Assembly: GCA_030532385.1 (NCBI GenBank)
Contig: JAUNLG010000011.1
Span: 1-33,352 of the forward strand
Direction of reading: 5' to 3'
Source: Anaerococcus sp.
GTDB lineage: Bacteria > Bacillota > Clostridia > Tissierellales > Peptoniphilaceae
Length of the DNA stretch: 33,352 bases
A program made the translations under genes and the position numbers. Under the pieces are notes generated by a model. The model made no database searches and had not been told where the DNA came from. It saw only the letters and a list, made by a program, of their open reading frames with translations. Below are positions 20,401 through 33,352 of this stretch, piece after piece (within the stretch, counting starts at the first letter, position 1; every line of letters starts with the position of its first letter).

Positions 20401-20569
20401 GGCGACAGCAACTGAGAGTGGCAATGAAAACACAGTTACAGTCTACAATAGAAAAGTATCAATCCCAATGACAGGAGGATCTGGTCCACTACTAATAATT
20501 CTAATAGGAGTAATCCTAATGAGTGGCTCAATAATCCTCTTTGAAAGAAGGAAAAGAAAATTAGGCTAA
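5459..20569 (+). CDS. Giant multidomain CnaB/SpaA-repeat surface adhesin (probable pilus tip or giant adhesin), IPMTG-anchored
   Basis: A 5,036-residue protein in one uninterrupted 15.1-kb frame. The signal peptide ends at about residue 30 (AFA|Q). Residues 31-260 form an N-terminal domain and about 261-340 a Ser/Glu/Pro stalk of PSEE/PSED repeats. Two related beta-rich modules with a shared 'LDDxL...G...A.GVY' pattern lie near 474-518 and 622-671, within a likely adhesin head. About seventeen CnaB/SpaA-like domains follow, each ending in an E-box such as YELEET.AP.GY; they begin near 1387, 1520, 1655, 1836, 1958, 2224, 2420, 2568, 2731, 2891, 3045, 3150, 3914, 4188, 4303, 4729 and 4855. A von Willebrand A-like domain lies at about 3305-3505 with a degraded metal site. 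The C-terminus has IPMTGG (5002-5007), a membrane segment and an RRKRK tail. CnaB domains usually carry intramolecular Lys-Asn isopeptide bonds. Place, motif and the downstream pilins suggest assembly with the pilus; the ligand is unknown. Confidence 0.93.
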   Translation: MKKRLNKIMSALMAIFMVLEVITPSFVAFAQEEETDTYTILGLSEKYEKDQDSYFSLDLATRIDKENLDSKDQISFALKAPADLSKLSLIVREDFDLFDDKSYYDDLAYASEDFDKLGQAFLDQGLRPDISLVEEDGLYRIANNVDQVYIKENFGPSYKAYSFDVVENFDFATNSIAKDIEGHEGEKIFNFTFKLVDLLNSEDKMLSLYKEELTPVSINHQGDLLGAIFDESTYSLYRAESIFNEVDSSLAYKQEEANKDQTLTEETPTEEPSDDTPSEDLPSEEIPSEDTSKEEASTDSPSEESPSEQTPSEEIPSEENLSEKAPEETQGLEESQTEIITGESKEESLNTESLDQDLVDEETSDNLVEESPLSPKEELIPSNKDTEDKITSLRDELLGANTSSKDQSLEENQSTNDSFLDRNNLLGQSVSPISIIEKSLDQTNILSENEKGEKIFDLNLPISLNPSQESPLNKGFSFDLTLDDDLNAKDLPINDLVDESGKVLAKGVYLPLENIIRYELLEEILESKNLVISQKLNINEGAFPKTIDGLGLRVGDDHQKLDPLSLEEDIFNATSLEISKEEIPQALGAGEMASDWQSKTFRLTTSVALKASNLLPIPQGWYFDIKLDDYLSAKDQDGSPLPINPLKDSNGNTIAEGVYDENNHLIRYTFNQAISTNMDLPINQDLKFRNIDQNTQFPIYISGIAIVPKSMAAQAMDPIKIEANDTRDIIESSFPQAQIGDQVSDSILSQSYPYKLEVHSEQKLLEATSHTPAIIGPGSDNMKLEVMWDFTIDTSILKGLDPSLGLDYIYFTIFGSYKQGLDKFKYKITTNKDDLDTYTDYKTNVTGNRSLMYTTSSSPDIKVPVSNTMPDTYYIRVLAPIKSGEFDRHPYYSMGLRISPSTNYIANLLEKLQAYIDSHPFLIPIVSGLELANKLASKNFNLSERMYVAETGLNNKLTDENFYYDNSRTIVSERVPTRSRWYALDLARLDIENEEATAASLSEDPGLENPSLNPSPAGRLIKSYYIPKQDGGYDWTTTQSKAMENGYLRPGTIVAYDYTNQYGGEDDRYSFDANIAQKKVFSDEDVLSNNTSNTTTEGGQVNLYSRRLSDEELNNTILSYTEDPYSIMRINNTFEMALCFNYTYEAPAVNGSSDSKIELERYDDPQGSILLDNIAKNTIEGGGQNPTLANTMPGGKYNLDKKSQEAAIKDLFERIYYYSEEVKKEEEAKYQGQDRYKMHRFLEYVMLQKSVHYYTDGVPLTRDFIASLAPGANAPENDIGLTFDQTLVGTRSGDHFDSQYRKSTDGPDGDNTAYKALAPGERLLKQWPSPSVYLEARPLAQRVIDKVEASYKSTNTEWEDRKLNDAVELVFFDHDRSGTQKLLSGHVLSPISIEKLDMEGSRIAGAEFTFIDLSDGSQTKWTSTTEDDQIYLRPGQYEVRETSTPQGYQPIENFNLTVTESLVNEEYGPYPNVGFNIKVHDGYETKLALDNVEKGPDGKDLVSIDNENLSIKLTNPSDQYGTLNFTKKDASANLDGASFRLRKLATSINTDELAKETVGKNPIPDEDFDKKDDGSLVYDQESKGNNGEFEFKQLPLGYYVLEETIAPAGFSTISPQAIRVSLVEDESGNQKAQASFLYDKYEKDKIIENNPIFTGIRFRKVRDLVAEGEESQALMNARFRLYSLWTKNNDYYKEDKISDPNGLIEFTDMPEGDYILLELKAPEGYLEPENQNPSFYGWKLFVRENPNSTTEEDKFTYDLYRLDESSDINKTQEDLIANKIDLDSILRVRDAIVDGDTVPYEAYELENTLRTVDTDFRKYKENPNFDPTKAESESNPKYIAFDSLGLVGEDGNPVRFSLYKSDFYGQTIGDPIDKNIVADKDGIFHLKDLEFNGYYILREENPPEGYQKASDIVLKVVAEAIVNEGTMRVIVRDKNHNTKVGLYDVFEGVVDYSNKNAYGKLQVRKTGDSVFPGYYEEVGLRRAYFRLYYADEDFNIDPNKYIQKVTPGVPIIDANGNPINPETFPAYQGYINFDQLQPGWYVLEEYKGPAGYERDPRPIYVYVGPDGTTIASRDINNEFFLAPRGHEVDDGRTLINPNDNLDQIKIRVFYNYYKPGSYQPPITNYEGRVKLQEYRDGVWVDVTNPQIIPSLTPKSNPLSLSYKFEKGKRYRLSYEITSGAELGWGQEKFQYFDIDFAATDESGIPLIDISNGSALRVYNADETGFRVPLRIEKKDKDKAPLAGAKFKARKLINGEKIPGEDIYPKYHDEAFDGFTEATGLAGDNYFRELTPGIYELEETEAPQDYKHLEGKRYFRVIINPDQDGNGIDYDQPADPKKEDYMIIDFDFTHTFSQDDDWNASISQEDKNALIGQTIYGLGSKDAPSGSDFVKNVEVIPDNGQSKPARPDAPYKSIQVVAVTNYKALRDLEFYKTDSKKNIIDLANFTLSRVEVDDNEKLVLDTEGNPSLILNDDQQPVYKKEVTASLGGLRFTGITEGTYILEETKAPPGYKKLDGYLVIHFRENDFGKIVEHFDLDQSSGGIKNKISLEPGEDSNTELKAITNDENSTSFRFSKLDPDGRPIYRSSFRLVAVDEDGNELKDIYDRTIVHLTDYNFNFDGLKIGRYKLTEDYVATGYQKPNPWYFNVVEDPRSEDGLRIEFETTLGSPSAVILSFIEDFGSTRARVLSQNQDFMNVKPGLSLMADTTPKEISLIDNAISKYDDGTWTITNHKEASLSFTKIKREFGQKDSPLSAVKFTFKKVKTSKTGQDIIYDANNKPVDPSMIPYGYYGEKLSSLNGRVSFENLSQGIYELEEVFEGERADDYNANTQRRWIFEVRKGENGLVPIYDKTYERAYYKENDPEYYQKYIDNNYYTYPSLENDGTGFKIVNIKNKTNIRWRKIDSTNGNLLLDQTNFEIYKLSDNPTALKTVAGDPGVILADRIFQDQGIFSIDDLERGVYKLKETKPPLGYEVPTRDIIVQILEKEVGDNDPGNKELMVKLYEYDKESSTLITDPSQYIYLKTHLLGENQVVDFENGFFAIGNTPTIKTNFTIKKIEAGTNRSLAGAIFLLSNEAGEPISRVISDENGQVIFRGLEAGTYELIEEMPPLGFERLEKTWTVTIDQDGNASIMERGDPTNLGNNLTVENKRPSPKGRFIINKLGRDLNSVDSPLAGAEFTLTSNTDPSKTLVRISDRTGQILFDNLDPGEYTLKETKAPNNYQATDKTWLVTVADDGITSVSEVSTPQPLLTRMASFFGLRSVSPNPAFENGYSNSLEKYPDNKYQSGPITLDGRATQVQTSAQYDSSSNTYLLEFAITAGPDLVQGSSQDKNIVVIMPKASSLSYNGLNSYRTAVTNWLKTYEGESSMKVALVTYSSGSVKSTDHTFKSVTDAISAIANAGTDGGTQYGDEVAIEKASGLLANVSGEKYIINANALALSNSTKINKYTNALNGKNINVTNFAIGPSGDKVYDEFARLNSSISGSVVTNYNLGNDFFTGAVPGPSSYEGKFPNIVTSVPDIKDAKVDISFNNNFTFVESSTSSWKDPSTDGGRWHSGYNSQTKTIDLSANELSLDQGQTAYISFRVKEADTVSKDTPSDLINDIGLTIGANTYTVDAPQVTIYERSYIDIVSEHTGIYPPGSTISAELFRKEGETEVKVASVTINPDKSERISNLRVKDDNGNPYTYIVKEITPSDSTIVIETPSIEIKDLSLEKIATIKSHYDKNETNLDINISGSYTNSGILSATLKRKVGDTVDPTFSKELDINVPSGAYTPLIGSIPKHDEANNTYTYFLDNVSVKDGKIIVGDQTSKANGDTYIIDIPITDAKEFSVSVDWNDISDKAPITLYLSDGSKITLDETNAYAYTASNLDASIVNISGDNTSYIYSLVGEKSPYTINVRRKEADLVLDVVNTMMSQGRFKIKKLNESNQNLAGAEFTLTKIDAIGNEITSFKPIVLSTGPDGIASFENIEEGTYKLEETKAPTGFAKTSDVWKVTVSKTGEIISVVVKEPDKTIDTQSADISNPSWKTYYADVSFGFGPNRDYRDEMAIRNTISETPDANGFYDLTITANPLLNYQEQNWYRTLTYELNTEDFWITYEGQDIYPVNSVRWHSIYVHYNNNPTTISYKIKPKRFEANRKLQPVKWLTWGNVTQEANYFASMTQRLNSEFKPGAEVPLSPNDGFNYEIVNEKLKVNVEFTKVDSKDSSIRLANAIFDLRKKDENGNFVKVNGGYSSNQDGVIILENLEAGHYKLYETEPPIGYLPLTGVAKEFIISEDGTITIKDPDGLDQEYNDTSKEIPNTEQGSEKFTFTKMDVGGEIPLAGVEFEILNINGQSIGKATSDTEGKVTFNNLPPGEYWIRETKQKDGYIRNTKPFQIYIGRNDWIVPETDGRDLSYYFSMDLVKGSNIQSTENREDVVYPNVSEGLMATLNYRIDPKANVEPGDYFILKLPDNVDIDGINKVNDSIFDIYGNFGKMAVAEVQPDRRSIKYKFTEAVDQYSNLENISILIPMFVDRVKVPYNGWLDMTISVGDASFNDYIFVDYDAPDGNGYIKAPDNIKIYQYKLNRNNGDFTAIIYVNPWKRVEKELDIRFSSASVINNVTMTTYKFTDPNVDIPWSFGIDFDDPTNPYKLEEVTDAFNYTYKSDDGNTWHQVLIPSDSFQTNSYVIKVTGTIDQSQSDAKDFTTIVEYFRDVINEDGSFIKDKLDWWKAYSEFYNPDADTSAGHIVYNTTNEIEYTKIDQATNPDAENEADREIELAGAVFELREIVGSNLVVLAGSERTSDANGKVRWEKLKPGSYQVWETKAPNGYIPVPAGGRLVKRFIVKEDGSISKPQVENSTDPNLSNNQSDRIVNIKPRKLEIIKKDYENNTNLLEGAVFNLYKLKDGSSEDIKFNPYDEANFTKLSQTIEGVDTTDFTTDTLGKISIDNLYDGTYYLVESKAPAGFAKMTKPIGPIKIKGGVIELPATAPSKDSDLYELKAKTEATATESGNENTVTVYNRKVSIPMTGGSGPLLIILIGVILMSGSIILFERRKRKLG

Positions 20570-20746: not shown

Positions 20747-22873
20747 ATGAAGAAATTATTAAGAAAGCTAGCAGCAGCAGCAACTGCCCTAGCAATGTTC
20801 GCTGGCGCAGCAGCCCCAGCCATGGCACAAGCCGGTACACCAGTTGTAGGTACACTAGATACTGAAACAATAACTACTGTTACCCTACACAAGATCAAAG
20901 TAAACTCACTAGATGGCTTTCCTATCACTCAACAAGATGGAGCAGACGTTATAGTAGGTAAGGATGGCACAACCGAATACAATGGTGGAGTAATCCAAGA
21001 TCTAACAGGATTCTTCGGAACTGGTGCACAAGAAATAGCTGGCGTTGAATTTACTTATTGGGTATTTGACAACCAAGCAGCTTATGAAGCAATGGTAAAT
21101 GCACCTGATTCATATGACACAGTAGACGAAGTTAATACTTATTTAACAGAACAAAATGTAACAGCAACTCAATCTACAGCAAAATCAGCTATAGGTGGTG
21201 TAGCACTTGATCAAATTATAGTTCCAGCAAATGAAAATAGATTCCTTTGGGCTGTAGAATCTTCATCAGTTATAGCAGGAGAAAATGGTGCAGAAGATCA
21301 AACAATCACAGGAATGAAGGCAGTACCATTTGGACTAGCCCTACCTTTACTAAAGGCTGACGGAAGTGCTAACACAGATATCCACGTTTATCCAAAAAAC
21401 ACAACCGCCAATGAACCTAAGGTAGATAAGGACCATGCAGCAAGCCTTGGTGGAGCTGTAGATGCAAATAATGATAGACAAGAAATAACTAATGAGATTC
21501 CTCCAGTTGCTCTTAACGTAGGAGATGAAGTTCCTTATGAAATCGAAACTTTAATCCCTGCTGGAGTAAATTATGAAACTGCAAGATGGTCAGACCAAAT
21601 GACTGAAGGTCTAACTTTTGGCCAAACTCAACTTGATGGTCTAACAGTAAAAATAGGAGCAAAGGGAGCAGAAGTTGCCCTAGTTAAAGATACTGATTAT
21701 ACTGTAAGTCTTGATGGCAATGGCTTTATCCTAGACCTACTAGCTCCTGGATTAGCACAAATAAATAATCAAACTAGCGAAACAAGGGTATTTATAGAAT
21801 ATAAGGCTATCCTTGATGAAGATGCTGTAGTAGAAAGACCAGAACGAAACGACTTAATGTTCCACTATGGTAACAAACAAGAGCATGCAAATACACCAAA
21901 ACCAACCAAACCTTCTAATGGAAGTCTAACAGTAACAAAGAACTTCCCTAATGTAAATGGTGGTTGGGCAGTTGGTGAAACTGTAACAGTTACAATCTAT
22001 GATGCCCACACAGGACAACCAGTAGTATTTGAAGATGGAACCCTTGCTACTCAAACTCTAGACATTGATAATCAATCATTTACATGGAATGGCCTTGACA
22101 ATGATAGGCAATATATTGTAAAAGAACAATTTAACGTAGGTCATGAAGCTGAATATATCACAAATGCGGATGGATCTATAACAATCAACGACTACCTAGG
22201 TGACTTCCCAGGACCAATAGACCCAGAAGAACCATCAGTTGAAACTTACGGTCACAGATTCCAAAAGGTTGACCAAGCAGGTACAGGTCTTCCTGGAGCA
22301 GAATTTGTTGTTAAAAACAATATAGCAGGTGATGTAAATAACGGTAAGTACCTAGCTTTAAAATCAGGTACTCAATTACAAGATGAACAAGCAGCTTACG
22401 ATGCAGCAGAAAAAGCTTATAAGGATGCAGTATCAGCTGCAACACAAGCTGACCCAAATACTGCAGGAATTGCTAATCTAAAGGCTACTAGAGATAAGGC
22501 TTTTGCCGATGTAAATTACCAATGGACATGGGTAGATACTAAAGATGCTGCTTATAAAGTTACTTCAGGAGATAATGGTTTCTTTAAGATAGGTGGTCTA
22601 AAAGATGGAGCTTACCAATTAGAAGAAACTAAGGCACCAGATGGATTTGCTATGCTAACTGCACCTGTTGACTTTGAAGTTACAAAAGACTCAATGGGTG
22701 AAACAACTATGGTAGATACTAAACTTACAGATACTGGTCTAACATCAGTTGAGAATAAGAAAGTAACAATCCCACAAACAGGTGGTATTGGTACAATGAT
22801 CTTTACTATAGTAGGTATCGGTCTAATGGCAGGTGCTTATATAGCAATGAAGAGAAATAAAGAGATAGCTTAG
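20747..22873 (+). CDS. Major (backbone) pilin, SpaH/EbpC-like, IPQTG-anchored
   Basis: This 708-residue protein has a signal peptide of about 28 residues (APAMA|Q). The pilin motif VYPKN lies at 214-218. Lys217 is the residue expected to attack the sortase-bound C-terminus of the next subunit and so build the shaft. Residues up to about 390 fit the N-terminal pilin domain, and about 395-485 a middle domain (GSLTVTKNF...YIVKEQF). The C-terminal CnaB domain begins near 500 (HRFQKVDQAGTGLPGAEFVV) and ends with the E-box YQLEET (623-628). It carries an unusual Ala/Lys/Asp-rich helical insertion at about 545-590. IPQTGG is at 675-680, followed by a membrane segment and KRNKEIA. Codons are strongly biased towards A- and C-ending forms, as expected for an abundant protein. 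The start follows a good ribosome binding site. Confidence 0.95.
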   Translation: MKKLLRKLAAAATALAMFAGAAAPAMAQAGTPVVGTLDTETITTVTLHKIKVNSLDGFPITQQDGADVIVGKDGTTEYNGGVIQDLTGFFGTGAQEIAGVEFTYWVFDNQAAYEAMVNAPDSYDTVDEVNTYLTEQNVTATQSTAKSAIGGVALDQIIVPANENRFLWAVESSSVIAGENGAEDQTITGMKAVPFGLALPLLKADGSANTDIHVYPKNTTANEPKVDKDHAASLGGAVDANNDRQEITNEIPPVALNVGDEVPYEIETLIPAGVNYETARWSDQMTEGLTFGQTQLDGLTVKIGAKGAEVALVKDTDYTVSLDGNGFILDLLAPGLAQINNQTSETRVFIEYKAILDEDAVVERPERNDLMFHYGNKQEHANTPKPTKPSNGSLTVTKNFPNVNGGWAVGETVTVTIYDAHTGQPVVFEDGTLATQTLDIDNQSFTWNGLDNDRQYIVKEQFNVGHEAEYITNADGSITINDYLGDFPGPIDPEEPSVETYGHRFQKVDQAGTGLPGAEFVVKNNIAGDVNNGKYLALKSGTQLQDEQAAYDAAEKAYKDAVSAATQADPNTAGIANLKATRDKAFADVNYQWTWVDTKDAAYKVTSGDNGFFKIGGLKDGAYQLEETKAPDGFAMLTAPVDFEVTKDSMGETTMVDTKLTDTGLTSVENKKVTIPQTGGIGTMIFTIVGIGLMAGAYIAMKRNKEIA

Positions 22874-22881
22874 TCTATGAT

Positions 22882-22902
22882 GCGAGGGGATTCTCCCCTT
22901 GC
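22882..22902 (+). promoter_or_regulatory. Intercistronic stem-loop between backbone and basal pilin
   Basis: GCGAGGGGA (22882-22890) pairs with TCCCCTTGC (22894-22902) around TTC, a strong stem of nine pairs with one G-T wobble and no U-tract after it. It may protect the 3' end of the abundant backbone message or reduce read-through into the basal pilin. Confidence 0.55.
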
Positions 22903-22938
22903 CTACATAGAAAGATCGAACAGCCAAGAGGAGAGGGT

Positions 22939-24282
22939 ATGAAAAGATATTTATCATTTATAACATTGATTATGCTTATCTTCACAGGGATATTCCAAGT
23001 AAATACTACTTATGCCGAGGAAGATTCAGGCGATTTTATAGCTAACCTTGGCCAAGTAGACGGAGATTTTAGACTAAAGCTATGGAAGATATCCGATAAG
23101 CGTGAAGATTACTTAGACCCAGAAGAGCAACTTAAGACAGTCTTTGACCTAAATAAGAAAAGCGAGGCTGAACTTGATCAAGCCTATAGAGAAAAGATCC
23201 TAAGCGACCTATCCTTTGTTGAAGATGGGGTAAGCAAGGTAAAAATCAAGGATTTGCCAAGAGGAGTCTATTATGTAAGAGGATCTGGCATTGACCTAGA
23301 AGATGGGACTTTTTCCAAAAATTTCCTAATCCTAATGCCAAATGCAAGCGGTGAGTATGACTACACTGCCTACCCTAAGGGCTCATCTACCACAGAGATC
23401 ATAAAGATTGATAGTGATGATGAAAGAAAGGTCCTAGAAGGAGCTAAGTTCCGCCTATACACCAAGGAGGGAGTGGAAGTTCCTATAGAAAATGGAGTAT
23501 ACGCTCCTAATGCTAAGCCTAGTATCCTTACTACAGATAGTGAGGGTAGGATTTTGATCAAAAATCTTCCTGATGGGGACTACTACCTAGAAGAGATCAA
23601 GGCTCCAGCAGACTATGAGATTAGTTCAAAGAAAACTTCTTTCAATGTTCCAAGAGATAAGAGGATTTTTATAAAAAATAAGAAGGTAAGAGGAGGTTAC
23701 TCTTTTCTTAAGGTAGATCAGACTAACAAAGCTCCTTTAGAGGGCGCCCAATTTGTGCTCCAAGTTAAAAATCCTGACGGAACCTATTCCAATGTCAAAA
23801 GACCAGGCACTAATGATGATTATATAATCTCATCAAATAAGGATGGGGTTTTTGAAGTAAGTGGACTTGCCTATGGGACCTACTATCTCTTAGAGCTTAA
23901 GGCACCTGATGGTTATATTAAGGAAAATCAAAGGATAGAATTTACTATCAATGGGGTAGATGAACTTGGAGTTAGAAAGGTTATAGAAAATAAGCCAAAT
24001 AGACCTCCAGATAAGCCTAATGAGCCAGAAGAGCCAAACAATCCGCCACCAGAAAATCCAGAAGAACCTAATGAGCCAAACAATCCACCACCAGAAAAAC
24101 CTAATGAACCAAACACTCCTAATACTCCAAACAAACCAAACGAACCAAATAAGCCTAATAAGCCAAATAGGCCTATTATTCCAAAGACTGGAGATATTAC
24201 TATAATTATCATGTCTATAGGAGGTTTGATCTTTATCCTAATGGGCATATGGATGGTGAAAGATAAAAGTAAGGAAAATTAG
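22939..24282 (+). CDS. Minor (basal) pilin with proline-rich tail, IPKTG-anchored
   Basis: This 447-residue protein has a signal peptide ending at about residue 26 (TTYA|E). An N-terminal domain runs to about 150 and ends in YPKG (145-148). Two CnaB domains follow, at about 152-245 (E-box YYLEEI 215-220) and 252-350 (E-box YYLLEL 315-320). A tail of some 60 residues of Pro/Asn/Glu/Lys repeats (353-413) precedes IPKTG (414-418), a membrane segment and a KDKSKEN end. A proline-rich spacer before the sorting signal is typical of the basal pilin that anchors the shaft in peptidoglycan, as in GBS and pneumococcal basal subunits. It is last in the operon and has its own ribosome binding site (AGAGGAG) after a stem-loop. 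Assignment as base rather than tip is inference from that tail. Confidence 0.9.
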   Translation: MKRYLSFITLIMLIFTGIFQVNTTYAEEDSGDFIANLGQVDGDFRLKLWKISDKREDYLDPEEQLKTVFDLNKKSEAELDQAYREKILSDLSFVEDGVSKVKIKDLPRGVYYVRGSGIDLEDGTFSKNFLILMPNASGEYDYTAYPKGSSTTEIIKIDSDDERKVLEGAKFRLYTKEGVEVPIENGVYAPNAKPSILTTDSEGRILIKNLPDGDYYLEEIKAPADYEISSKKTSFNVPRDKRIFIKNKKVRGGYSFLKVDQTNKAPLEGAQFVLQVKNPDGTYSNVKRPGTNDDYIISSNKDGVFEVSGLAYGTYYLLELKAPDGYIKENQRIEFTINGVDELGVRKVIENKPNRPPDKPNEPEEPNNPPPENPEEPNEPNNPPPEKPNEPNTPNTPNKPNEPNKPNKPNRPIIPKTGDITIIIMSIGGLIFILMGIWMVKDKSKEN

Positions 24283-25537: not shown

Positions 25538-25568
25538 GATCTCACTTGCTGGGGTCTTTTTTTTATTT
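25538..25568 (+). terminator. Terminator behind the D-lactate dehydrogenase gene, joined to the repeat locus
   Basis: GATCTCACTTGCTGGGGTC followed by a run of T is an imperfect version of the GACCTCG-TTTT-GCGGGGTC terminator found at 30842 and 32479. As there, a mosaic repeat unit follows directly. Confidence 0.6.
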
Positions 25569-25787
25569 TTTTGGGGATAAGGGGGAAGGGGGATTATTTA
25601 AGGTGATTTTTTTGTTTTGGGGAGTTTTGGTCTTTGGTGGGATTGTTGTTTTTTACTTTTTTTCTTCGTACTCCGGGGAGATGTCCCGGGGACAGTTCAT
25701 GACCTAACCTATAATCTTTGATTTTGTTGGCAGGTCAGATGTCGCAGTAAAGAAATCTATGATTTCGTCTTACAGCCGACTCGGATG
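25569..25787. repeat. Mosaic intergenic repeat unit 1 (modules A-B-C)
   Basis: T/G-rich module A ends at 25663. Module B runs 25664-25694 (CTTCGTACTCCGGGGAGATG to GGGGACA). Module C runs 25695-25782 (GTTCATGACC to GCCGACTC) and is followed by GGATG. C holds two stem-loops, GACCTAACC.../...GGCAGGTC and GTAAAGAAATC/GATTTCGTCTTAC. The unit lacks the GC-rich core module D: after GGATG it runs straight into the next T/G-rich tract. Confidence 0.85.
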
Positions 25788-26127
25788 GGGACTTTTTGAA
25801 TTTTTTGGTTTTGGGGGAGTTTTGGTCTTTGGTGGGATTTTTGTTTTTTTGGTTGGCTTCGTACTCCGGGGAGACACCCCGGGGACACTTGCGGATGTGT
25901 CCCGTCGGGTTTCTCCCCGGTCCCCTCTTTCCCGTAACCCCCGCAACCGCTTTTTGACCCGCCTCGTTTGTGCTTGCGCCAAACATCGGGTTGGTTTGGG
26001 GTGATGGTTGTTTTGTTCTGAATGGCTTTGGTTGGGGGGGATTTTCTTTTGTTTATGATGGATTTCTAGGTTTGTGGTTTGCTTTTGTTTTCGCTTGTTT
26101 TGCTTTGCAAAACTTTGCTTAGTGGGT
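25788..26127. repeat. Mosaic intergenic repeat unit 2 (modules A-B-D-E)
   Basis: A: 25788-25856. B: 25857-25887. D: 25888-25990, GC-rich. E: 25991-26127, with the hairpin GTTTTGC-TTT-GCAAAAC at 26097-26113. B and the start of D form one long imperfect stem: CCGGGGAGA (25866-25874) with TCTCCCCGG (25912-25920), enclosing GGGACAC/GTGTCCC (25882-25888 and 25897-25903) around an eight-base loop. Bases 25893-26127 are identical to 26254-26488. Confidence 0.9.
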
Positions 26128-26488
26128 AGTTTTATTTTTAGTTTTGTTTCGAAGTTGAGGGGACAGTTCATGACCTAACCCAAAATCTTTGATTTTGTTG
26201 GTAGGTCAGATGTCGCAGTAAAGAAATCTTTGATTTCGTCTTACAGCCGACTCGGATGTGTCCCGTCGGGTTTCTCCCCGGTCCCCTCTTTCCCGTAACC
26301 CCCGCAACCGCTTTTTGACCCGCCTCGTTTGTGCTTGCGCCAAACATCGGGTTGGTTTGGGGTGATGGTTGTTTTGTTCTGAATGGCTTTGGTTGGGGGG
26401 GATTTTCTTTTGTTTATGATGGATTTCTAGGTTTGTGGTTTGCTTTTGTTTTCGCTTGTTTTGCTTTGCAAAACTTTGCTTAGTGGGT
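26128..26488. repeat. Mosaic intergenic repeat unit 3 (modules B'-C-D-E)
   Basis: Here the left arm is an alternative module (26128-26165, ending TTTCGAAGTTGAGGGGACA) instead of the CTTCGTACTCC form. C lies at 26166-26253, D at 26254-26351 and E at 26352-26488. The D-E part is a perfect 235-bp copy of 25893-26127. About 80 T-rich bases without features lie between this unit and the tyrS terminator. Confidence 0.9.
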
Positions 26489-26544
26489 GGTTTTTTTGTT
26501 TTGTCTCCGCTTGTTTTTCTTTGGTTTTTTAATTTTGGGTATGG

Positions 26545-26570
26545 AAAAAGCTGGCTTTTGCCAGCTTTTT
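26545..26570. terminator. Terminator of tyrS (minus strand), symmetric
   Basis: AGCTGGC (26549-26555) and GCCAGCT (26560-26566) pair around TTTT, with A-run on the left and T-run on the right, so it works on both strands. It lies directly beyond the tyrS stop codon and would also stop plus-strand transcripts leaving the repeat locus. Confidence 0.9.
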
Positions 26571-27818
26571 TTAGGCAAGTTCTACTTTGTGGAAGTTTTT
26601 TTTGCCTTTTTTGATTATTATTTTTCCATCTTGGAATATTTCTTTGGTGATTTCGAAGGTTGGGTCTGTTATTTTTTGATCGTTTATTGATACTCCGCCT
26701 TGGTTTACTATTCTTCTTGCTTCTCCGTTTGATTTGGTTAGGCCTAGTTTTGTTAGTAGGTTTAGGAGTCCTAGTGGGAGGTTTTCTTTTTCTAGTTTTG
26801 TTGTTGGCATGGCACTTTCATCGCCTTTTCCTTGGAAGAGGGCTCTTGCTGCATCTCTTGCTTGTTTTGCTTTTTCTTCTCCATGGACTAGTTTTACTAC
26901 TTCATAGGCTAGGGTTTCTTTGGCTTTGTTTATGTCTTTTGCTTCTTTGCTTGCTGTTAGGTTTTTGATTTCTTCTGTTTTTAGGAAGGTTAGTTGGAGG
27001 AGGAATTTTTCTACGTCTCTATCGTCTACGTTTCTCATGTATTGGAACATTTCATATGGGCTTGTTTTTTCTTCATCTAGCCATACTGCTCCTTTTTGGC
27101 TTTTGCCCATTTTTACTCCATCTGCTGTTGTTAGTAGGGAGAAGGTCATGCCGTAGGCTTTGCCATTTTCTTTTTTTCTAATTAGGTCAACTCCTCCTAT
27201 GATGTTTGACCATTGGTCTGATCCTCCGATTTCTAGCTTTACTCCATCATTTCTATACATGTGTAGGAAGTCGTAGGATTGTAGGAGCATGTAGGAGAAT
27301 TCGAAGAAGGTTAGTCCTCCTTGAGCCATTCTATTTTTGTAGGCGTCTTTTTTTAGCATTTCGTTTACTAAGAATTCGTTGCCTATATCTCTTAGGAATT
27401 CTAAGAATTTTAAGTTTAGTAGCCAGTCTTTGTTATTTAGCATTACTGCTCCGTTGTCAAAGTCTAGGAATTTTTGGAATTGTTTGTAAAAGCAGCTGGC
27501 GTTATGGTCGATTCTTTCTTCTGTCATTACTTTTCTCATATCTGACCTTCCTGATGGGTCTCCTATGAGGGTTGTTCCTCCACCTAGAAGGGCTACTGGC
27601 ATGTGGCCGTAGTTTTGCATTCTCATCATTACCATGATTTGGATTAGGTGGCCTACTGTTAGGGAGTCTGCTGTTGCATCAAAGCCACAGTAGAATTTGA
27701 CTTTTTCCTTGCTTAGTAGCTCTTTTAGTTCTTCTTCATTGGTTGCTTGTTCATAGTAGCCACGGGCTACTAGTTCGTCAAAGACGTTATCGTATTCTTT
27801 CTCGTAAGTAAATTTCAT
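26571..27818 (-). CDS. tyrS: Tyrosyl-tRNA synthetase
   Basis: This 415-residue class I aminoacyl-tRNA synthetase charges tRNA-Tyr. The HIGH-type signature is in DSLTVGHLIQIM near residues 46-57, followed by LLGGGTTLIGDPSGR. Tyrosine-binding and KMSKS-type elements follow: SYMLLQSYDF, GGSDQWSNI and KMGKSQ. A C-terminal S4-like RNA-binding domain begins after PLGLLNLL (LTKSNGEARRIVNQGGVSIND). The start was set at the ATG at 27818, which has GGAGGAG eight bases upstream. A longer in-frame start exists but would translate the T-box leader. The gene is transcribed alone, divergently from metG, and ends at the symmetric terminator next to repeat locus 1. Expression should rise when uncharged tRNA-Tyr accumulates. 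Confidence 0.97.
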   Translation of the reverse strand: MKFTYEKEYDNVFDELVARGYYEQATNEEELKELLSKEKVKFYCGFDATADSLTVGHLIQIMVMMRMQNYGHMPVALLGGGTTLIGDPSGRSDMRKVMTEERIDHNASCFYKQFQKFLDFDNGAVMLNNKDWLLNLKFLEFLRDIGNEFLVNEMLKKDAYKNRMAQGGLTFFEFSYMLLQSYDFLHMYRNDGVKLEIGGSDQWSNIIGGVDLIRKKENGKAYGMTFSLLTTADGVKMGKSQKGAVWLDEEKTSPYEMFQYMRNVDDRDVEKFLLQLTFLKTEEIKNLTASKEAKDINKAKETLAYEVVKLVHGEEKAKQARDAARALFQGKGDESAMPTTKLEKENLPLGLLNLLTKLGLTKSNGEARRIVNQGGVSINDQKITDPTFEITKEIFQDGKIIIKKGKKNFHKVELA

Positions 27819-27990
27819 TTCTCCTCCTGATTTTTCCACAAAAAAAGAGCATAAAAGGGCAAATAATGCGGTACCACCTTTTTTTATACTCATACTTGGA
27901 TAGACGCCAAGTTCGCCTTAAACAAAATGAAGTGTAGGTTGGCCATAGCTATTTCAAGCCAGGTTAATGGTTTCATTGTAAGTTTATATA
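27819..27990 (-). promoter_or_regulatory. Tyrosine T-box leader of tyrS (compact Stem I)
   Basis: Reading the minus strand: a short Stem I closed by AATGAA/TTCATT (27977-27926) carries TAC (27936-27934), a tyrosine codon, in the specifier position. Stem III follows as ACTTGG-CGTCTAT-CCAAGT. The T-box AAGGTGGTACCGC lies at 27880-27868. The antiterminator pairs AAAAGG with CCTTTT and GC with GC. The competing terminator pairs GAGTATAAAAAAAGG with CCTTTTATGCTC, followed by seven T. All elements of a transcriptional T-box are present, but Stem I is only about 52 bases. Confidence 0.85.
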
Positions 27991-27997
27991 TATTATT

Positions 27998-28025
27998 AAT
28001 ATACAGGATATGTCATAAATTACAA
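27998..28025 (-). promoter_or_regulatory. Promoter of the tyrS transcript
   Basis: On the minus strand TTGTAA (28025-28020), a 16-base spacer and TATATT (28003-27998). It would start transcription near 27990, just before Stem I of the T-box. The promoter of the divergent metG must overlap this region, but no clear metG boxes were found. Confidence 0.5.
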
Positions 28026-28094
28026 GTTTATATGATTTTTTATCCCCCTTGCAGTATGATAAAGCTAGTATTATTTAGAGTAGAAAGGAATGTT

Positions 28095-30047
28095 ATGAGA
28101 GAAAAAGAACCTTATTATATAACTACTCCGATATATTATCCAAATTCTAACCTACATATCGGAAATACTTACACTTCAGTTATTGCTGATGTGCTTAAAA
28201 GATATAAAAATCTAAGGGGCTATGAGGCCTTTTTGACTACCGGAACTGATGAGCATGGACAAAAGATTATGAGGACTGCTATTAGTGCAGGCACTTCTCC
28301 TCAAAAGTTTGTCGATAGGATTGCTGATGAGACTAAGGAGCTTTGGAAGAAGCTTGAGATTGATTATGATAGATTTATTAGGTCTACTGAGGAAGGTCAC
28401 GAGAAGGATGTGGCTGATATTTTCAATATCCTTTATGATAAGGGAGATATCTATAAGGGAGTCTACAAGGGCTATTATTGTACTCCTGATGAGACTTTTT
28501 GGACTGAATCTCAACTAATAGATGGCAAGTGTCCAGAGTGTGGTAGGGATGTGGAATACCAAGAGGAGGAGACTTACTTTTTTAGGCTATCTAAGTATGA
28601 GGATAGGCTAAAAAACTTGTTTAGGGACCATCCTGATTTCTTAGAACCTAGCTTTAGGCAAAAAGAGATGCTTAATAATTTTATCGATAAGGGTCTAGAA
28701 GATCTTTCTGTTACTAGAAATTCTTTTGACTGGGGAGTTGATGTTCCTTTTGATAATAAGCATGTGGTTTATGTATGGATTGACGCCCTATCTTGCTATC
28801 TTTCTGCTATTGGCTTTGGTGATGATAAGCTTAAGTTTAAGAAGTTCTGGCCTGCTGGAGTTCATTTGATTGGTAAGGATATAGTTAGGTTTCACACTAT
28901 AATCTGGCCTGCTCTTCTTATGGCCCTAGACCTTCCTTTGCCAAAGAAGGTTTTTGCCCATGGTTGGATTCTTTTTGATAATGATAAGATGAGTAAGTCT
29001 AAGGGCAATATTATGTATCCAGAACCTCTTGTTGACCTTTATGGGGTAGACGCCTTAAAATTCTTTATGCTAAGAGAATTTAATTTTGGCTCTGATGGGA
29101 ATTTTTCTGCCCAAAAGTTTATGGAAAGATACAATTCTGATTTAGTTAATGACCTAGGTAACCTAGTATCAAGGACTACTTCAATGATTGATAAGTACAA
29201 TGAAGGTTTTATAGCAAAAGGTTCTATAGAAGAAGAAGTTGACCTTGATCTTAAGGCTAAGGCTAAGTCCACTTATGAGGATTTTATAAGGCTAATGGAT
29301 GACTTTAACTTTAACCTTGCCCTAGAAAGCTTATGGAGCTTTATTAGAAGGGCTAATAAGTATGTAGATGAAACCGAGCCATGGATTTTGGGTCGTGATG
29401 AGGCGAATAAGGAAAGACTTAATAGGGTCTTATATAACCTTGCTGAAAGTCTAAGGATAATCGCCCAACTTATAGAGCCTGTGATGAAAAATACTACCAA
29501 GGAAATCTTGGCCAAGCTTTCTTTTAAGAATATGGGCTTTGAATCTGCAGGCAAGTTTGGTCTTTTAGAAGAGGGGCTAAAGGTATCTAAGGGAGCCAAT
29601 CTTTTTGATAGGCTTGATGTAGAAAAGGAACTTATAAAACTTCATAAGAAAAACCAAGACCTAATTGATGAAAGGATTAGGACTAATAGGGGCGAGCCTG
29701 AAGTGGAAGATGAGGACCTTCCTACCATAGACTTTGGTGATTTTCAAAAAGTTGATATGGTTGTAGGAGAAATTGTTGGTGCCTATGACCATCCAAATGC
29801 TGATAAGCTCTTAGTCTTTAAGGTTGATATAGGAGAAGAAGCGCCAAGGACTATTATTTCAGGAATCAAAAAATGGTATAAGGCTGATGACCTTTTGGGC
29901 AAAAAAGTTATTGTTGTCAAAAATCTTGCCAAAAGAAAAATGCGTGGCATAGAGTCTGAGGGCATGATCCTTGCTGCAGATGATGGGACTAATTTATCGC
30001 TCTTATCCCTCCTATCTGACCTTCCAAATGGGTCTAAGGTGTCCTAA
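28095..30047 (+). CDS. metG: Methionyl-tRNA synthetase with C-terminal tRNA-binding domain
   Basis: This 650-residue class I synthetase charges initiator and elongator tRNA-Met. The HIGH motif is HIGN (21-24), and the catalytic lead is TTPIYYPN. The zinc-knuckle region has Cys129, Cys146 and Cys149 (CTPDETFWTESQL, KCPECG), which looks like a single reduced knuckle. KMSKS is at 298-302. The anticodon-binding helical domain follows, and a Trbp111/EMAP-like tRNA-binding domain occupies about 545-650 (FQKVDMVVGEIV, HPNADKLLVFKVDIG). The ATG at 28095 was chosen for its AAAGGA ribosome binding site and because the family's N-terminus begins just there; an upstream extension of 56 codons is not homologous. 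The stop codon overlaps the tatD start as TAATG, so the two genes are co-translated. Confidence 0.97.
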   Translation: MREKEPYYITTPIYYPNSNLHIGNTYTSVIADVLKRYKNLRGYEAFLTTGTDEHGQKIMRTAISAGTSPQKFVDRIADETKELWKKLEIDYDRFIRSTEEGHEKDVADIFNILYDKGDIYKGVYKGYYCTPDETFWTESQLIDGKCPECGRDVEYQEEETYFFRLSKYEDRLKNLFRDHPDFLEPSFRQKEMLNNFIDKGLEDLSVTRNSFDWGVDVPFDNKHVVYVWIDALSCYLSAIGFGDDKLKFKKFWPAGVHLIGKDIVRFHTIIWPALLMALDLPLPKKVFAHGWILFDNDKMSKSKGNIMYPEPLVDLYGVDALKFFMLREFNFGSDGNFSAQKFMERYNSDLVNDLGNLVSRTTSMIDKYNEGFIAKGSIEEEVDLDLKAKAKSTYEDFIRLMDDFNFNLALESLWSFIRRANKYVDETEPWILGRDEANKERLNRVLYNLAESLRIIAQLIEPVMKNTTKEILAKLSFKNMGFESAGKFGLLEEGLKVSKGANLFDRLDVEKELIKLHKKNQDLIDERIRTNRGEPEVEDEDLPTIDFGDFQKVDMVVGEIVGAYDHPNADKLLVFKVDIGEEAPRTIISGIKKWYKADDLLGKKVIVVKNLAKRKMRGIESEGMILAADDGTNLSLLSLLSDLPNGSKVS

Positions 30048-30808
30048 TGGGTCTAATTGATAGCCACTGCCACCTAACAGATGAGGCTTTTGATGGGGAT
30101 AGGGATTTTATAATTAAGGACCTTGGTAATTTTAAGGTTGACTATATTATAAATCCTGGTACAAACCTGGCTGATTCTAAAAAGGCCCTAGACCTTGCCC
30201 ATAAGTTTGATAGGGTCTTTGCCCAAGTGGGTATTCACCCTGAAGATGTAGATTCAATGGGAGAAGGTGACCTTAAGGAGATTGAAGGTATGGCTAAAGA
30301 TCCTAGGGTCCTTGCCATAGGGGAGATTGGCCTTGATTATCATTTTAGGGATGATAATAAGGATAGGCAAAAGGAAGTCTTTATTAGCCAGCTTAAGATG
30401 GCTAGAAGGCTTGGTAAGCCTTGTGTAATCCATACTAGGGATGTAGGTATGGATGCCTATGAAATTTTGAAAGACTTTAAGGATCTTAAGGTTCAAATCC
30501 ATTGCTTTCAAGAAGATGAAAGGATGCTTAAGCTTTATCTAGACTTAGGTTTTTATATTTCTATTGGGGGAGTGGTGACCTTTAAGAATGGTCTTAATGA
30601 GAAAAGGGCGGCAGGTCTTTGTCCTATGGATAGGCTTATGGTTGAGACAGATAGCCCCTACCTAAGTCCTGAACCCTTTAGGGGCCTAAGGAATGATCCT
30701 AGGAGGATTATGGAAGTGGCAAGGGTTATTGCTGGTATTAGGGGAGTTAAGCTTAGTAGGGTTATTAAGGGGACTAGTAGGAGTGCTAGGGAGTTTTTTG
30801 ACTTTTAG
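30047..30808 (+). CDS. tatD: TatD-family metal-dependent DNase/hydrolase
   Basis: This 253-residue protein has the TIM-barrel metal hydrolase pattern. His7 and His9 are in IDSHCHL, Glu93 in AIGEIGLDYHF, His129 in CVIHTRD, His152 in IHCFQED and Asp202 in VETDSPYLSPEP. The family usually has HCFSG at the fourth site; here it reads HCFQED. TatD proteins are 3'-5' exonucleases on damaged DNA or RNA, and the gene commonly follows metG in Gram-positive bacteria, as here with a one-base overlap. The last codons (REFFDF) and the stop codon lie inside a repeated sequence: TTGACTTT-TAG-AAAGTCAA forms a perfect 8-bp stem whose loop is the TAG stop. Confidence 0.94.
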   Translation: MGLIDSHCHLTDEAFDGDRDFIIKDLGNFKVDYIINPGTNLADSKKALDLAHKFDRVFAQVGIHPEDVDSMGEGDLKEIEGMAKDPRVLAIGEIGLDYHFRDDNKDRQKEVFISQLKMARRLGKPCVIHTRDVGMDAYEILKDFKDLKVQIHCFQEDERMLKLYLDLGFYISIGGVVTFKNGLNEKRAAGLCPMDRLMVETDSPYLSPEPFRGLRNDPRRIMEVARVIAGIRGVKLSRVIKGTSRSAREFFDF

Positions 30809-31237
30809 AAAGTCAAGGAAATTTTTGTTTTTTTATTTTTTGACCTCGTTTTGCGGGGTCTTTTTTTCTTGGTTTTTTTGAAGGAAGGGGAGAGGAAGGA
30901 TTTAGGTTGATTTTTTTGGTTTTGGGGGAGTTTTGGTCTTTGGTGGGGTTGTTGTTTTTTACTTTTTTTCTTCGTACTCCGGGGAGACACCCCGGGGACA
31001 CTTGCGGATGTGTCCCGTCGGGTTTCTCCCCGGCCCCCTCTTTCCCGTAACCCCCGCAACCGCTTGTCGACCCGCCTCGTTTGTGCTTGCGCCAAACATC
31101 GGGTTGGTTGGGGTAATGTTTGTTTTGTTCTGAATGGCTTCGATTGAGGATTTGTTTTTTGTTTATGATGGATTTCTAAGTTTTAGGTTTTCTTTTGTTT
31201 TCGCTTGTTTTGCTTTGCAAAACTTTGCTTAGTGGGT
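30795..31237. repeat. Mosaic intergenic repeat unit 4 (terminator-A-B-D-E)
   Basis: The unit begins inside the last codons of tatD with the TTGACTTT/AAAGTCAA hairpin and the terminator (to 30883), then module A to 30969, B 30970-31000, D 31001-31103 and E 31104-31237. Locus-specific variants, CGCTTGTCGACCCG in D and GGTTGGTTGGGGTAATG in E, are shared with unit 5 but not with units 1-3. Bases 31006-31174 are identical to 31420-31588. Confidence 0.9.
30842..30868 (+). terminator. Terminator of metG-tatD, part of the repeat family
   Basis: GACCTCG (30842-30848) pairs with CGGGGTC (30854-30860) around TTTTG, with seven T following. Bases 30795-30883 are repeated almost exactly at 32431-32520 behind the membrane-protein gene. 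Confidence 0.9.
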
Positions 31238-31645
31238 GGATTTTTGTTTGTTTTGGGGGATTTGTGGTCTTTGGTGGGGTTTTTGTTTTTTATTGATTGG
31301 CTTCGTACTCCGGGGGGACACCCCGGGGACAGTTCATGACCTAACCCAAAATCTTTGATTTTGTTGGTAGGTCAGATGCCTGAGTACAGAAATCTATGAT
31401 TTCGTCTTACAGCCGACTCGGATGTGTCCCGTCGGGTTTCTCCCCGGCCCCCTCTTTCCCGTAACCCCCGCAACCGCTTGTCGACCCGCCTCGTTTGTGC
31501 TTGCGCCAAACATCGGGTTGGTTGGGGTAATGTTTGTTTTGTTCTGAATGGCTTCGATTGAGGATTTGTTTTTTGTTTATGATGGATTGCTGGGTTTGTG
31601 GTTTGATTTTATTTTCGCTCGTTTTGCTTTGCAAAACCTTGCTTG
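31238..31645. repeat. Mosaic intergenic repeat unit 5 (modules A-B-C-D-E)
   Basis: This is the only unit in the window with every internal module: A 31238-31300, B 31301-31331 (with one extra change, CCGGGGGGACACC), C 31332-31419, D 31420-31517 and E 31518 to about 31645. C sits exactly between GGGGACA and GGATGTGTCCC, the two arms of the stem that in units 2, 4 and 8 is closed by the short CTTGC. After 31588 module E departs from unit 4. Confidence 0.9.
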
Positions 31646-31675
31646 CTTGTGTCGGTTTTTATTTTTCAAAAATTT

Positions 31676-31735
31676 TGTAAAGTAAGCTTGACATTTTTTG
31701 CTAAGTAGACTATATTAAAAGTGTAAAGTAAGCTT
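31676..31735 (+). promoter_or_regulatory. Paired operator-like direct repeats around the regulator promoter
   Basis: TGTAAAGTAAGCTT occurs twice without mismatch, at 31676-31689 and 31722-31735, 46 bases apart start to start. The first copy runs into the -35 box and the second lies just past the expected transcription start. This is a typical layout for repression, most likely by the XRE protein encoded next. Confidence 0.65.
31688..31716 (+). promoter_or_regulatory. Promoter of the XRE regulator/membrane-protein operon
   Basis: TTGACA (31688-31693), a 17-base spacer and TATATT (31711-31716), a near-consensus promoter framed by the two 14-bp repeats. Confidence 0.8.
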
Positions 31736-31773
31736 TGCATAATAGGATGATTTTTGCTTCTAAGGAGTTTTTT

Positions 31774-31974
31774 ATGGATAATAGGTTGGCTGAGTTTAGG
31801 AAGAAGTGGAGGTTGTCTCAGGAAGAGTTGGCTTTTGAGGTTGGTGTTTCTAGACAGACTATTACTTCTATTGAGACAGGTAGGTATGTTGCAAGTTTGC
31901 CTTTGGCTTTTAAGTTGGCTAGGTTTTTTTCTTGCAAGATTGAGGATATTTTTTTTATGGATGAGGAGGATTAG
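31774..31974 (+). CDS. XRE-family transcriptional regulator, single HTH domain
   Basis: At 66 residues this is one Cro/CI-type helix-turn-helix domain: RLAEFRKKWRLSQEELAFEV, then GVSRQTITSIETGRYVASL and LAFKLARFFSCKIEDIFFMD. Short XRE proteins of this type (YozG-like) usually repress their own operon and are paired with a membrane protein, as here. The ATG at 31774 follows AAGGAG (31762-31767) by six bases. The stop codon directly abuts the next ATG, so the two products should be made together. The paired TGTAAAGTAAGCTT repeats around the promoter are the likely binding sites. Codons are very rich in T and G. Confidence 0.9.
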   Translation: MDNRLAEFRKKWRLSQEELAFEVGVSRQTITSIETGRYVASLPLAFKLARFFSCKIEDIFFMDEED

Positions 31975-32424
31975 ATGAGAAAGTATGAGGATTTTAAGAG
32001 GGATCTTTCTAGAAGGTTATTTTATATGGCTTTTATGGTTTTTGCTATGGTGGCTGTTCTAATTCTTGCTAGTTTTGTTTTTGATGTTAGTGTTGTTGAT
32101 GGTCCTATTCCTTTTGATTATATCTTTGGGTTTTTTGTAGGGATTATTTTGGGGCTTTTGTTTTTAGGGGTTTTGACTTATAGGAAGGCTTTTAGTGATA
32201 GGGGGCTTAGGGAGCTTTATATTTCTGCTAAGGATGAGAGGAATGTTTATATCAAGATGAAGTCAGGGCTTAATGTGATTCCTTTTTTGTCGGTTGGGCT
32301 TTTGTTTTTGTCTTTGATTTTTGTTTTTATTAATTTTTGGGTGTTTTTGACTTTGGCCCTTGTTGGTCTTGGTCAGGTTCTTGTGGCTTTGGTGCTTTTT
32401 TGGTATTGGTCTAGGAGGGTGTAG
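31975..32424 (+). CDS. Four-helix membrane protein paired with the XRE regulator, function unknown
   Basis: This 149-residue protein has four likely membrane segments, at about 15-37, 49-70, 103-122 and 124-147. A cytosolic loop between the second and third carries LRELYISAKDERNVYIKMKSG. A DER motif in that loop is a feature I associate with the DUF2178-like small membrane proteins that are encoded behind short XRE regulators, but the family match is uncertain. The ATG follows the regulator stop codon without a gap, with GAGGAGG in the end of the regulator gene as its ribosome binding site. The gene ends seven bases before a repeat unit that also supplies its terminator. No enzymatic motif was found. 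Confidence 0.8.
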   Translation: MRKYEDFKRDLSRRLFYMAFMVFAMVAVLILASFVFDVSVVDGPIPFDYIFGFFVGIILGLLFLGVLTYRKAFSDRGLRELYISAKDERNVYIKMKSGLNVIPFLSVGLLFLSLIFVFINFWVFLTLALVGLGQVLVALVLFWYWSRRV

Positions 32425-32430
32425 GTGGGA

Positions 32431-32701
32431 TTTTTGACTTTTGGAAAGTCAAGGAAATTTTTTGTTTTTTTATTTTTTGACCTCGTTTTGCGGGGTCTTT
32501 TTTCTTGGTTTTTTTGAAGTTTTGAATTTTTTGGCTGTGGTTTTTTTGGTCTTTGGTGGGGTTTTTGTTTTTTATTGATTGACTTCGTACTCCGGGGAGA
32601 TGTCCCGGGGACAGTTCATGACCTAACCCAAAATCTTCGATTTTGTTGGTAGGTCAGATGTCGAAGTACAGAAATCTATGATTTCGTCTTACAGCCGACT
32701 A
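32431..32701. repeat. Mosaic intergenic repeat unit 6 (terminator-A-B-C)
   Basis: The terminator module runs 32431-32520, A to 32582, B 32583-32613 (ATGTC variant) and C 32614-32701. C ends CCGACTA instead of CCGACTC. No D module follows; GGATGGGGAC leads into the next T/G-rich tract, as in unit 1. Confidence 0.87.
32479..32503 (+). terminator. Terminator of the regulator/membrane-protein operon, part of the repeat family
   Basis: GACCTCG-TTTTG-CGGGGTC followed by six T, the same hairpin as behind tatD. The preceding TTGACTTT-TGG-AAAGTCAA (32434-32452) matches the hairpin that contains the tatD stop codon. Confidence 0.9.
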
Positions 32702-32895
32702 GGATGGGGACTTTTTGAATTTTTTTGTTTTGGGGGAGTTTTGGTCTTTGGTGAGATTTTTGTTTTTATTGATTGACTTCGTACTCCGGGGAGATGTCCC
32801 GGGGACAGTTCATGACCTAACCTATAGTCTTTAGTTTTGTTGGTAGGTCAGATGCCTGAGTACAGAAATCTATGATTTCGTCTTACAGCCGACTC
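32702..32895. repeat. Mosaic intergenic repeat unit 7 (modules A-B-C)
   Basis: A 32702-32776, B 32777-32807 and C 32808-32895. C has the GCCTGAGTACAG variant of its second stem-loop and several changes in the first (CTATAGTCTTTAG). D and E are absent. Confidence 0.85.
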
Positions 32896-33231
32896 GGATG
32901 TTGATCTTTTGTTTGGAGGATTTGTGGTCTTTGGTGGGATTTTTGTTTTTATTGGTTGACTTCGTACTCCGGGGAGACACCCCGGGGACACTTGCGGATG
33001 TGTCCCGTCGGTTTTCTCCCCGGCCCCCTCTTTCCCGTAACCCCCGCAACCGCTTTTTGACCCGCCTCGTTTGTGCTTGCGCCAAACATCGGGCGTGTCA
33101 GGTGGTTTTTGTTATATAATTTTTGCCTGCGTTTTATATTTACTTTCTTTGTTTGTTTATACTGGATTGCTGAGTTTTGTGGTTTGCTTTAGTTTCTGCT
33201 CGTTTTGCTTTGCAAAACCTTGCTTAATGTG
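32896..33231. repeat. Mosaic intergenic repeat unit 8 (modules A-B-D-E)
   Basis: A 32896-32959, B 32960-32990, D 32991-33093 and E 33094 to about 33231. D matches units 2 and 4 closely (CGCTTTTTGACCCG form). E is more divergent, but keeps the GTTTTGC-TTT-GCAAAAC hairpin. Confidence 0.87.
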
Positions 33232-33352
33232 TAGTTTTATTTTTAGTTTTGTTTCGAAGTTGAGGGGACAGTTCATGACCTAACCCAAAATCTTTGATTT
33301 TGTTGGTAGGTCAGATGCCTGAGTACAGAAATCTATGATTTCGTCTTACAGC
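33232..33352. repeat. Mosaic intergenic repeat unit 9 (modules B'-C, cut by the window end)
   Basis: The alternative left arm (TTTCGAAGTTGAGGGGACA, ending 33270) is followed by C from 33271, which continues past the window. The order E-B'-C copies that of units 2-3 (26100-26253), so D and E probably follow outside the window. Confidence 0.85.

Follow-up and report, generated by a model that had tools for sequence, protein, structure and literature searches.

The same few sequence modules recur in changing order at three intergenic places in an Anaerococcus sp. genome, and the question that this raises is whether they constitute one mosaic repeat, comparable to BOX elements, or have more than one origin. 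The window analysed is the whole of contig C13, 33,352 nucleotides, from a draft genome of 1.39 Mb in 21 contigs that is 82% complete. Nine units in three intergenic arrays, with the module orders A-B-C, A-B-D-E, B'-C-D-E, and A-B-C-D-E, had been described in an earlier note made from the sequence, and direct reading and a repeat search confirmed this layout. Direct repeats in the window reach 248 nt, which is far beyond chance. The A-B-C units begin near 25600, 32543, and 32720, the A-B-D-E units near 25796, 30905, and 32907, and the A-B-C-D-E unit near 31240. The B'-C-D-E units begin near 26147 and 33250, the latter being cut by the contig end at 33352. The arrays and the leader of the units are as follows.

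25538..26490, forward strand: array 1, consisting of A-B-C, A-B-D-E, and B'-C-D-E, between a D-2-hydroxyacid dehydrogenase gene and the convergent tyrS
30795..31646, forward strand: array 2, tatD tail and terminator followed by A-B-D-E and A-B-C-D-E
32431..33352, forward strand: array 3, copied tatD tail and terminator followed by A-B-C, A-B-C, A-B-D-E, and B'-C, cut by the contig end
25600..25663, forward strand: A tract, the T/G-rich unit leader, with further copies near 25796, 30905, 31240, 32543, 32720, and 32907

Two genes occupy the interval between arrays 2 and 3 (31774-32424), one for a small HTH regulator and the other for a protein of 149 aa that has no Pfam match.

Modules B and D pair with each other as the arms of a single 55-nt hairpin; the three copies folded have energies between -35.9 and -40.3 kcal/mol, with z-scores between -4.0 and -4.7.

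25866..25920, forward strand: B/D hairpin with empty loop, -40.3 kcal/mol, z -4.7
30979..31033, forward strand: B/D hairpin with empty loop, -40.1 kcal/mol, z -4.3
32969..33023, forward strand: B/D hairpin with empty loop, -35.9 kcal/mol, z -4.0

The sequence of the empty loop is CTTGCGGAT, and on a second contig of this genome, C18, it is CTCTTGGAT. In the A-B-C-D-E and B'-C-D-E units this loop is occupied by C, such that filled and empty loops are both present in the genome. The A-B-C units are truncated copies without D and E. The whole mosaic can therefore be described as one hairpin, in which the nested element is present or absent, together with its truncated copies. The C copies of the window are listed below.

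25698..25780, forward strand: C, with D and E absent
26169..26251, forward strand: C in the B'/D hairpin loop
31335..31417, forward strand: C in the B/D hairpin loop
32617..32699, forward strand: C, with D and E absent
32811..32893, forward strand: C, with D and E absent
33274..33352, forward strand: C, cut by the contig end

It had been proposed that the modules in general are richer in GC than their surroundings and strongly foldable. The first property belongs to B (0.65–0.70) and D (0.63–0.66), against 0.38 for the window, but not to the A, C, and E stretches (0.31–0.40). Likewise, of the eight pieces folded in all, the three B/D hairpins are strongly folded, but an A stretch has a z-score of +1.0 and D/E pieces have -0.5 and -2.0; two copies of C gave -1.9 and -3.2.

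Behind the hairpin, D and E are copied together.

25893..26120, forward strand: D-E block, 228 nt identical to 26254-26481 and with one difference from the C18 copy
26254..26481, forward strand: D-E block, identical to that at 25893..26120
31006..31233, forward strand: D-E block, used in the comparison among copies
31420..31646, forward strand: D-E block, used in the comparison among copies
32996..33232, forward strand: D-E block with a second E subtype, in which E is only 67–72% like the other E copies of the window

The sharp ends of this block, the identical pair in array 1, and the copy differing at one site behind the glutaredoxin gene on C18 indicate that D-E acts as a 228-bp copying block, as read from sequence comparison. 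Identity among seven copies is 93–100% for D and 66–100% for E.

When one full unit was used as the query, 18 pieces were found in the genome, all in one orientation and all located either in the window or in the final 4.2 kb of C18. Read in reverse, C18 begins with the repeat, followed by flavodoxin, an AraC-family regulator, a Toprim/DUF4093 gene that we take to be rnmV, rRNA adenine dimethylase, glutaredoxin, and the repeat again. In 14 out of 16 relatives read, the exceptions being G019 and G020, the Toprim gene lies within 5 nt after tatD. It is therefore very likely that the ends of C13 and C18 adjoin, in which case all of the A-B-D-E copies probably lie within about 12 kb plus the gap between the two contigs. 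Each array lies directly behind the terminator of a gene, as the earlier note stated, but in arrays 2 and 3 this terminator belongs to a single duplicated segment. The end of tatD, with the terminator behind it, occurs at 30795-30883 and again, 97% identical, at 32431-32519. Since arrays 2 and 3 both open with the tatD tail and terminator, array 3 is at least partly a segmental duplicate.

Outside this genome the block was not recovered. Downstream of tyrS there is no such array in the 260 nt read from each of ten relatives, and A-B-D-E has no convincing match in the other 129 genomes of the family, for which the best five candidates per genome were scored. Weak matches to B-D-E in G001, G006, and G117 were read by eye and rejected as plain T-rich sequence and TTTTG runs. 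In G117, locus L050 has several hundred bases of degenerate TTTTG/TTTGC runs, which are the source of a false module E match. A 20-nt exact string of D is absent from collections of genome contigs and viral contigs, and there is no match in plasmid and phage collections, all of these being collections from which near kin of the window may be missing. The nearest relative among the genomes compared has a TatD identity of 69%. Because the draft is 82% complete and a 701-nt probe found no 23S gene in it, copies of the repeat may be missing from the assembly. Among the genomes searched, the A-B-D-E block is, to judge from its sequence, local to one region of one genome.

That the arrays are collapsed or chimeric repeats created by assembly at a contig end is very improbable. 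The contig does end within the repeat and the genome is a draft, but the units differ from one another, two of the three arrays are inside the contig between intact genes, and other species whose genomes are a single contig also have C (for example G009, G024, and G033). It is also quite improbable that the units are tandem small-RNA genes or other regulatory RNAs under selection, with the B/D hairpin as their core. The low z-scores of that hairpin and the better conservation of D than of E among the copies would be expected of such genes, but recent copying accounts for the identity among copies. In addition, units without D-E or without part of B persist, there is no Rfam match, and the block is absent from relatives at the sensitivity used.

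The C module has a different history from its host. It is a separate element of approximately 85 nt with two hairpins, as seen from covariation in an alignment of 25 copies picked for full length, with 500 shuffles as the control. In this structure 93.8% of the cells are paired, against 84.7% in the shuffles, and 43 cells have changes on both sides, against 13.9. The alignment exceeds all 500 shuffles in paired cells, in cells with two-sided change, and in covariation score, and is no better than the shuffles by the remaining two of five measures, the number of pairs with two-sided change (reached by 92 of 500) and of pair types (165 of 500). Read by eye, TTCWTGACC and GCCGAC, the two ends of C, are mutually non-complementary and each hairpin is an inverted repeat by itself. 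At two pairs of loci (L029 with L038, and L031 with L043), the second hairpin loop of C holds further foreign sequence, resembling a nested insertion.

The earlier note had named in advance, as evidence against its repeat family, copies confined to the window. By this measure the A-B-D-E block comes close to failing, having been found only in the window and at the end of C18, but C is clearly found elsewhere by BLAST, by pattern, and by covariance model. A BLAST search with C and D gave matches in 16 out of 31 genomes of the genus, including the source genome; in the other 15 all matches are within the C part, the sole match in G027 being 21 nt. The covariance model found C at E ≤ 0.001 in 69 of the 130 Peptoniphilaceae genomes and in 23 of 39 genera, with at most 35 candidates scored per genome and some of the matches weak. 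In a phylum-wide draw, with 11 candidates scored per genome, C was found in two of 398 genomes, the source genome and one more of the Peptoniphilaceae. Searched as a pattern, the first half of C has matches in 56 stretches of named genomes, among which are Anaerococcus, Peptoniphilus, Aedoeadaptatus, Mediannikoviicoccus, Lagierella, Gudongella, and several metagenome-assembled genomes assigned to Tissierellales, Clostridia, or Eubacteriales; these last suggest that C extends beyond the Peptoniphilaceae. The pattern also matches five viral contigs.

These distributions bear directly on the comparison with BOX, which one account (PMC3049150) describes as modular, variable in copy number, and strongly folded, as the window repeats are. 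A BOX-like composite, in which the modules spread as a unit and their folded transcripts affect the genes next to them, would agree with the modular build, the variable composition, the strong folding of B/D, and the intergenic sites behind genes. It is nevertheless unlikely, since many genera have C with none of A, B, D, or E, and A-B-D-E was found in one genomic neighbourhood only. Here one of the 'modules' is a separate palindrome that lies within the loop of a hairpin, and the block that hosts it was found in one region only. The composite BOX layout, boxA and boxC with a variable number of boxB, was not found; no central module repeats within a unit, and C stands alone elsewhere. Of the single BOX-like modular repeat that had been proposed, the modular mosaic and the lack of an Rfam family stand, and the unity does not: C is separate and nested, B and D are one hairpin, and A-B-D-E, found in one chromosomal neighbourhood only, shows local duplication. 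Rfam 15 gave no match above the gathering cut-off in the window. A candidate PreQ1 riboswitch in array 1 (15.3 bits against a cut-off of 39, E 3.8) was taken as chance.

The sites of C in other genomes include stable-RNA genes. It is inside the 23S gene of five Anaerococcus genomes (G007, G009, G012, G022, and G026), where the six loci mapped, covering all five, place it in an insertion between E. coli positions 1163 and 1186, a stretch that we take to be helix 45. It lies at no fewer than three places within this insertion, depending on the species. In G009, where two 23S copies were compared, one has C and the other lacks it, and in A. octavius (G012) C is beside all four 23S matches found. 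In seven Anaerococcus genomes (G004, G008, G009, G011, G016, G028, and G030) C was located by eye in the 23S-5S spacer; the G009 and G016 loci were checked with Rfam on both sides and the G008 locus for 5S. Two 23S copies of G010 (L199 and L219) differ by an insert of approximately 105 nt, unlike C, within the same 23S insertion.

Fragments of tRNA and 5S genes also carry the element, the fragments having been read by eye and the intact genes identified by ARAGORN and Rfam. C is in a 5' tRNA-Glu fragment at GCGGT/TAAGAC in G002, G008, G024, G025, and G026, in two tandem 5' tRNA-Val fragments in G043, and in one 5' tRNA-Phe fragment in G072. Each of these is near an intact tRNA of the same kind. 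The C-containing tRNA-Val and tRNA-Phe 5' fragments at L176:1501-1736 and L170:1501-1591 are just upstream of the intact gene, and each is apparently able to close a short stem. In G102, C is in two 5S copies that flank an intact 5S. In both phage contigs examined it is between genes, beside tail genes near the tape measure protein in L146 and beside a DNA methyltransferase in L145. No paper on C was found in the literature searched, which was limited to open-licence papers, and RepRanger (PMC12306157), searched by term, makes no mention of Anaerococcus, Peptoniphilus, or Tissierell-. The C element is the wider finding of this work, having no Rfam family and no paper found, and being unusual in that its habitats include rRNA, tRNA, and intergenic DNA alike.

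Neighbouring copies of C are often in tandem. Among the 150 matches listed, there are 22 pairs within 600 bp, in 11 of 42 genomes, against 0.3 expected under uniform placement; the pairs are non-independent, eight being from Aedoeadaptatus ivorii and three from the source genome. All are on the same strand. Independent insertion would give both orientations, therefore duplication together with the flanks is the better reading. In A. ivorii, C is within a 300-bp tandem unit that has a different partner palindrome. These units, at L103:5000-6900, consist of C and a palindrome beginning GTCATTCTGAGCGAG, and sequence similar to this palindrome precedes C in Mediannikoviicoccus and Lagierella.

It may be asked whether C is an undescribed class of element that homes to stable-RNA genes (the 23S intervening sequence, the 23S-5S spacer, 5S, and the tRNA D-arm), seeds tandem duplication of host sequence and itself wherever it lands, carries along fragments of tRNA, 5S, and intergenic hairpins, and is thereby the source of the window arrays. 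This is doubtful and is put forward tentatively. Were it true, C would behave as a bacterial analogue of the tRNA- and 5S-derived SINEs.

No mobilising enzyme could be tied to C in the association of Y1_Tnp tested over 130 family genomes, and no target duplication was seen by eye at the tRNA-Glu, tRNA-Val, tRNA-Phe, or 5S sites, or at the 23S site of G009. The lack of terminal inverted repeats and target duplications reported for the window thus holds at the sites read. With no mover and no target duplication, the case for mobility rests on the comparison of sites, which supports C as a mobile element. Targeting of hairpin loops in general, an idea that arose from the B/D and tRNA D-arm sites, was not supported (7.7 flank pairs versus 6.6 ± 0.6 in 68 contexts, deduplicated from the 132 copies, out of 134 matches, that have long enough flanks).

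Several known families resemble C in part. The palindromic elements of Rickettsia are one short palindromic family in many genomic contexts, as C is, and are known from reading frames that are kept open. C as a reading-frame element was rejected, because none of 118 copies is in a frame open for at least 30 codons on both sides, 16 of the 134 near locus ends having been left out. REP/BIME palindromes are likewise short, dispersed, and extragenic; C is longer than these, has two hairpins, and lacks a consistent Y1 transposase. A REP-type nature of C, with an IS200/IS605-type (Y1/RAYT) transposase as its mover, is unlikely. Y1_Tnp is commoner in genomes with C (46 of 69) than in those without (28 of 61; Fisher p 0.02, kinship ignored) and has two matches in the source genome, but the association is weak and six out of 15 hand-picked high-copy genomes have no Y1 (G039, G087, G088, G101, G102, and G104). 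MITEs are also non-autonomous, palindromic, and present in many replicons, whereas the ends of C are not mutual inverted repeats and no target duplication accompanies it at the sites read (MITE features as given in PMC3049150). There is a likeness in position to 23S intervening sequences, which use helix 25 or 45; that of Coxiella is described in helix 45 (PMC4990558). The C of the five Anaerococcus genomes is in an insertion in the stretch that we take to be helix 45. C makes up only part of that insertion and occurs outside rRNA as well, both dispersed and in tandem arrays; its copies in the window are not in 23S.

The window arrays are therefore best understood as a real mosaic, in which a palindromic element is nested in a hairpin block that has been amplified locally; the mechanism, and a function if there is one, are inferred. 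The reading preferred, with a probability of about 0.6, is that non-autonomous palindromic C inserted and that C and its host block were then amplified in tandem. C, of approximately 85 nt, would have spread through the Peptoniphilaceae, presumably moved by an activity encoded elsewhere. It sits between genes, in phage genomes, and in stable-RNA loci, sites at which one more hairpin would be nearly harmless. The host would be the A-B-D-E block of one part of the chromosome of the source species, with its 55-nt hairpin of B arm, loop, and D arm. One C probably landed in the B/D loop; both the filled and the empty state are seen, and this is the likely direction. Unequal recombination or replication slippage between palindrome-rich units could then have multiplied, truncated, and homogenised them into same-strand tandem arrays, and may have carried flanking sequence along, as the copy of the tatD tail suggests. 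Beyond giving hairpin transcripts behind terminators, most arrays probably serve no function of their own.

The amplified-insertion reading links 23S rRNA intervening sequences, small dispersed palindromes, and mosaic intergenic arrays, which are usually handled apart. If C is mobile, culturable commensals such as Anaerococcus octavius, and the genome G009, would allow the origin of rRNA intervening sequences to be tested.

Elsewhere in the window, a 5036-aa open frame at 5459-20569 adjoins a sortase (2066-2959) and two pilin-like proteins with SpaA domains (20747-24282). Together these are a large surface-protein or pilus locus.
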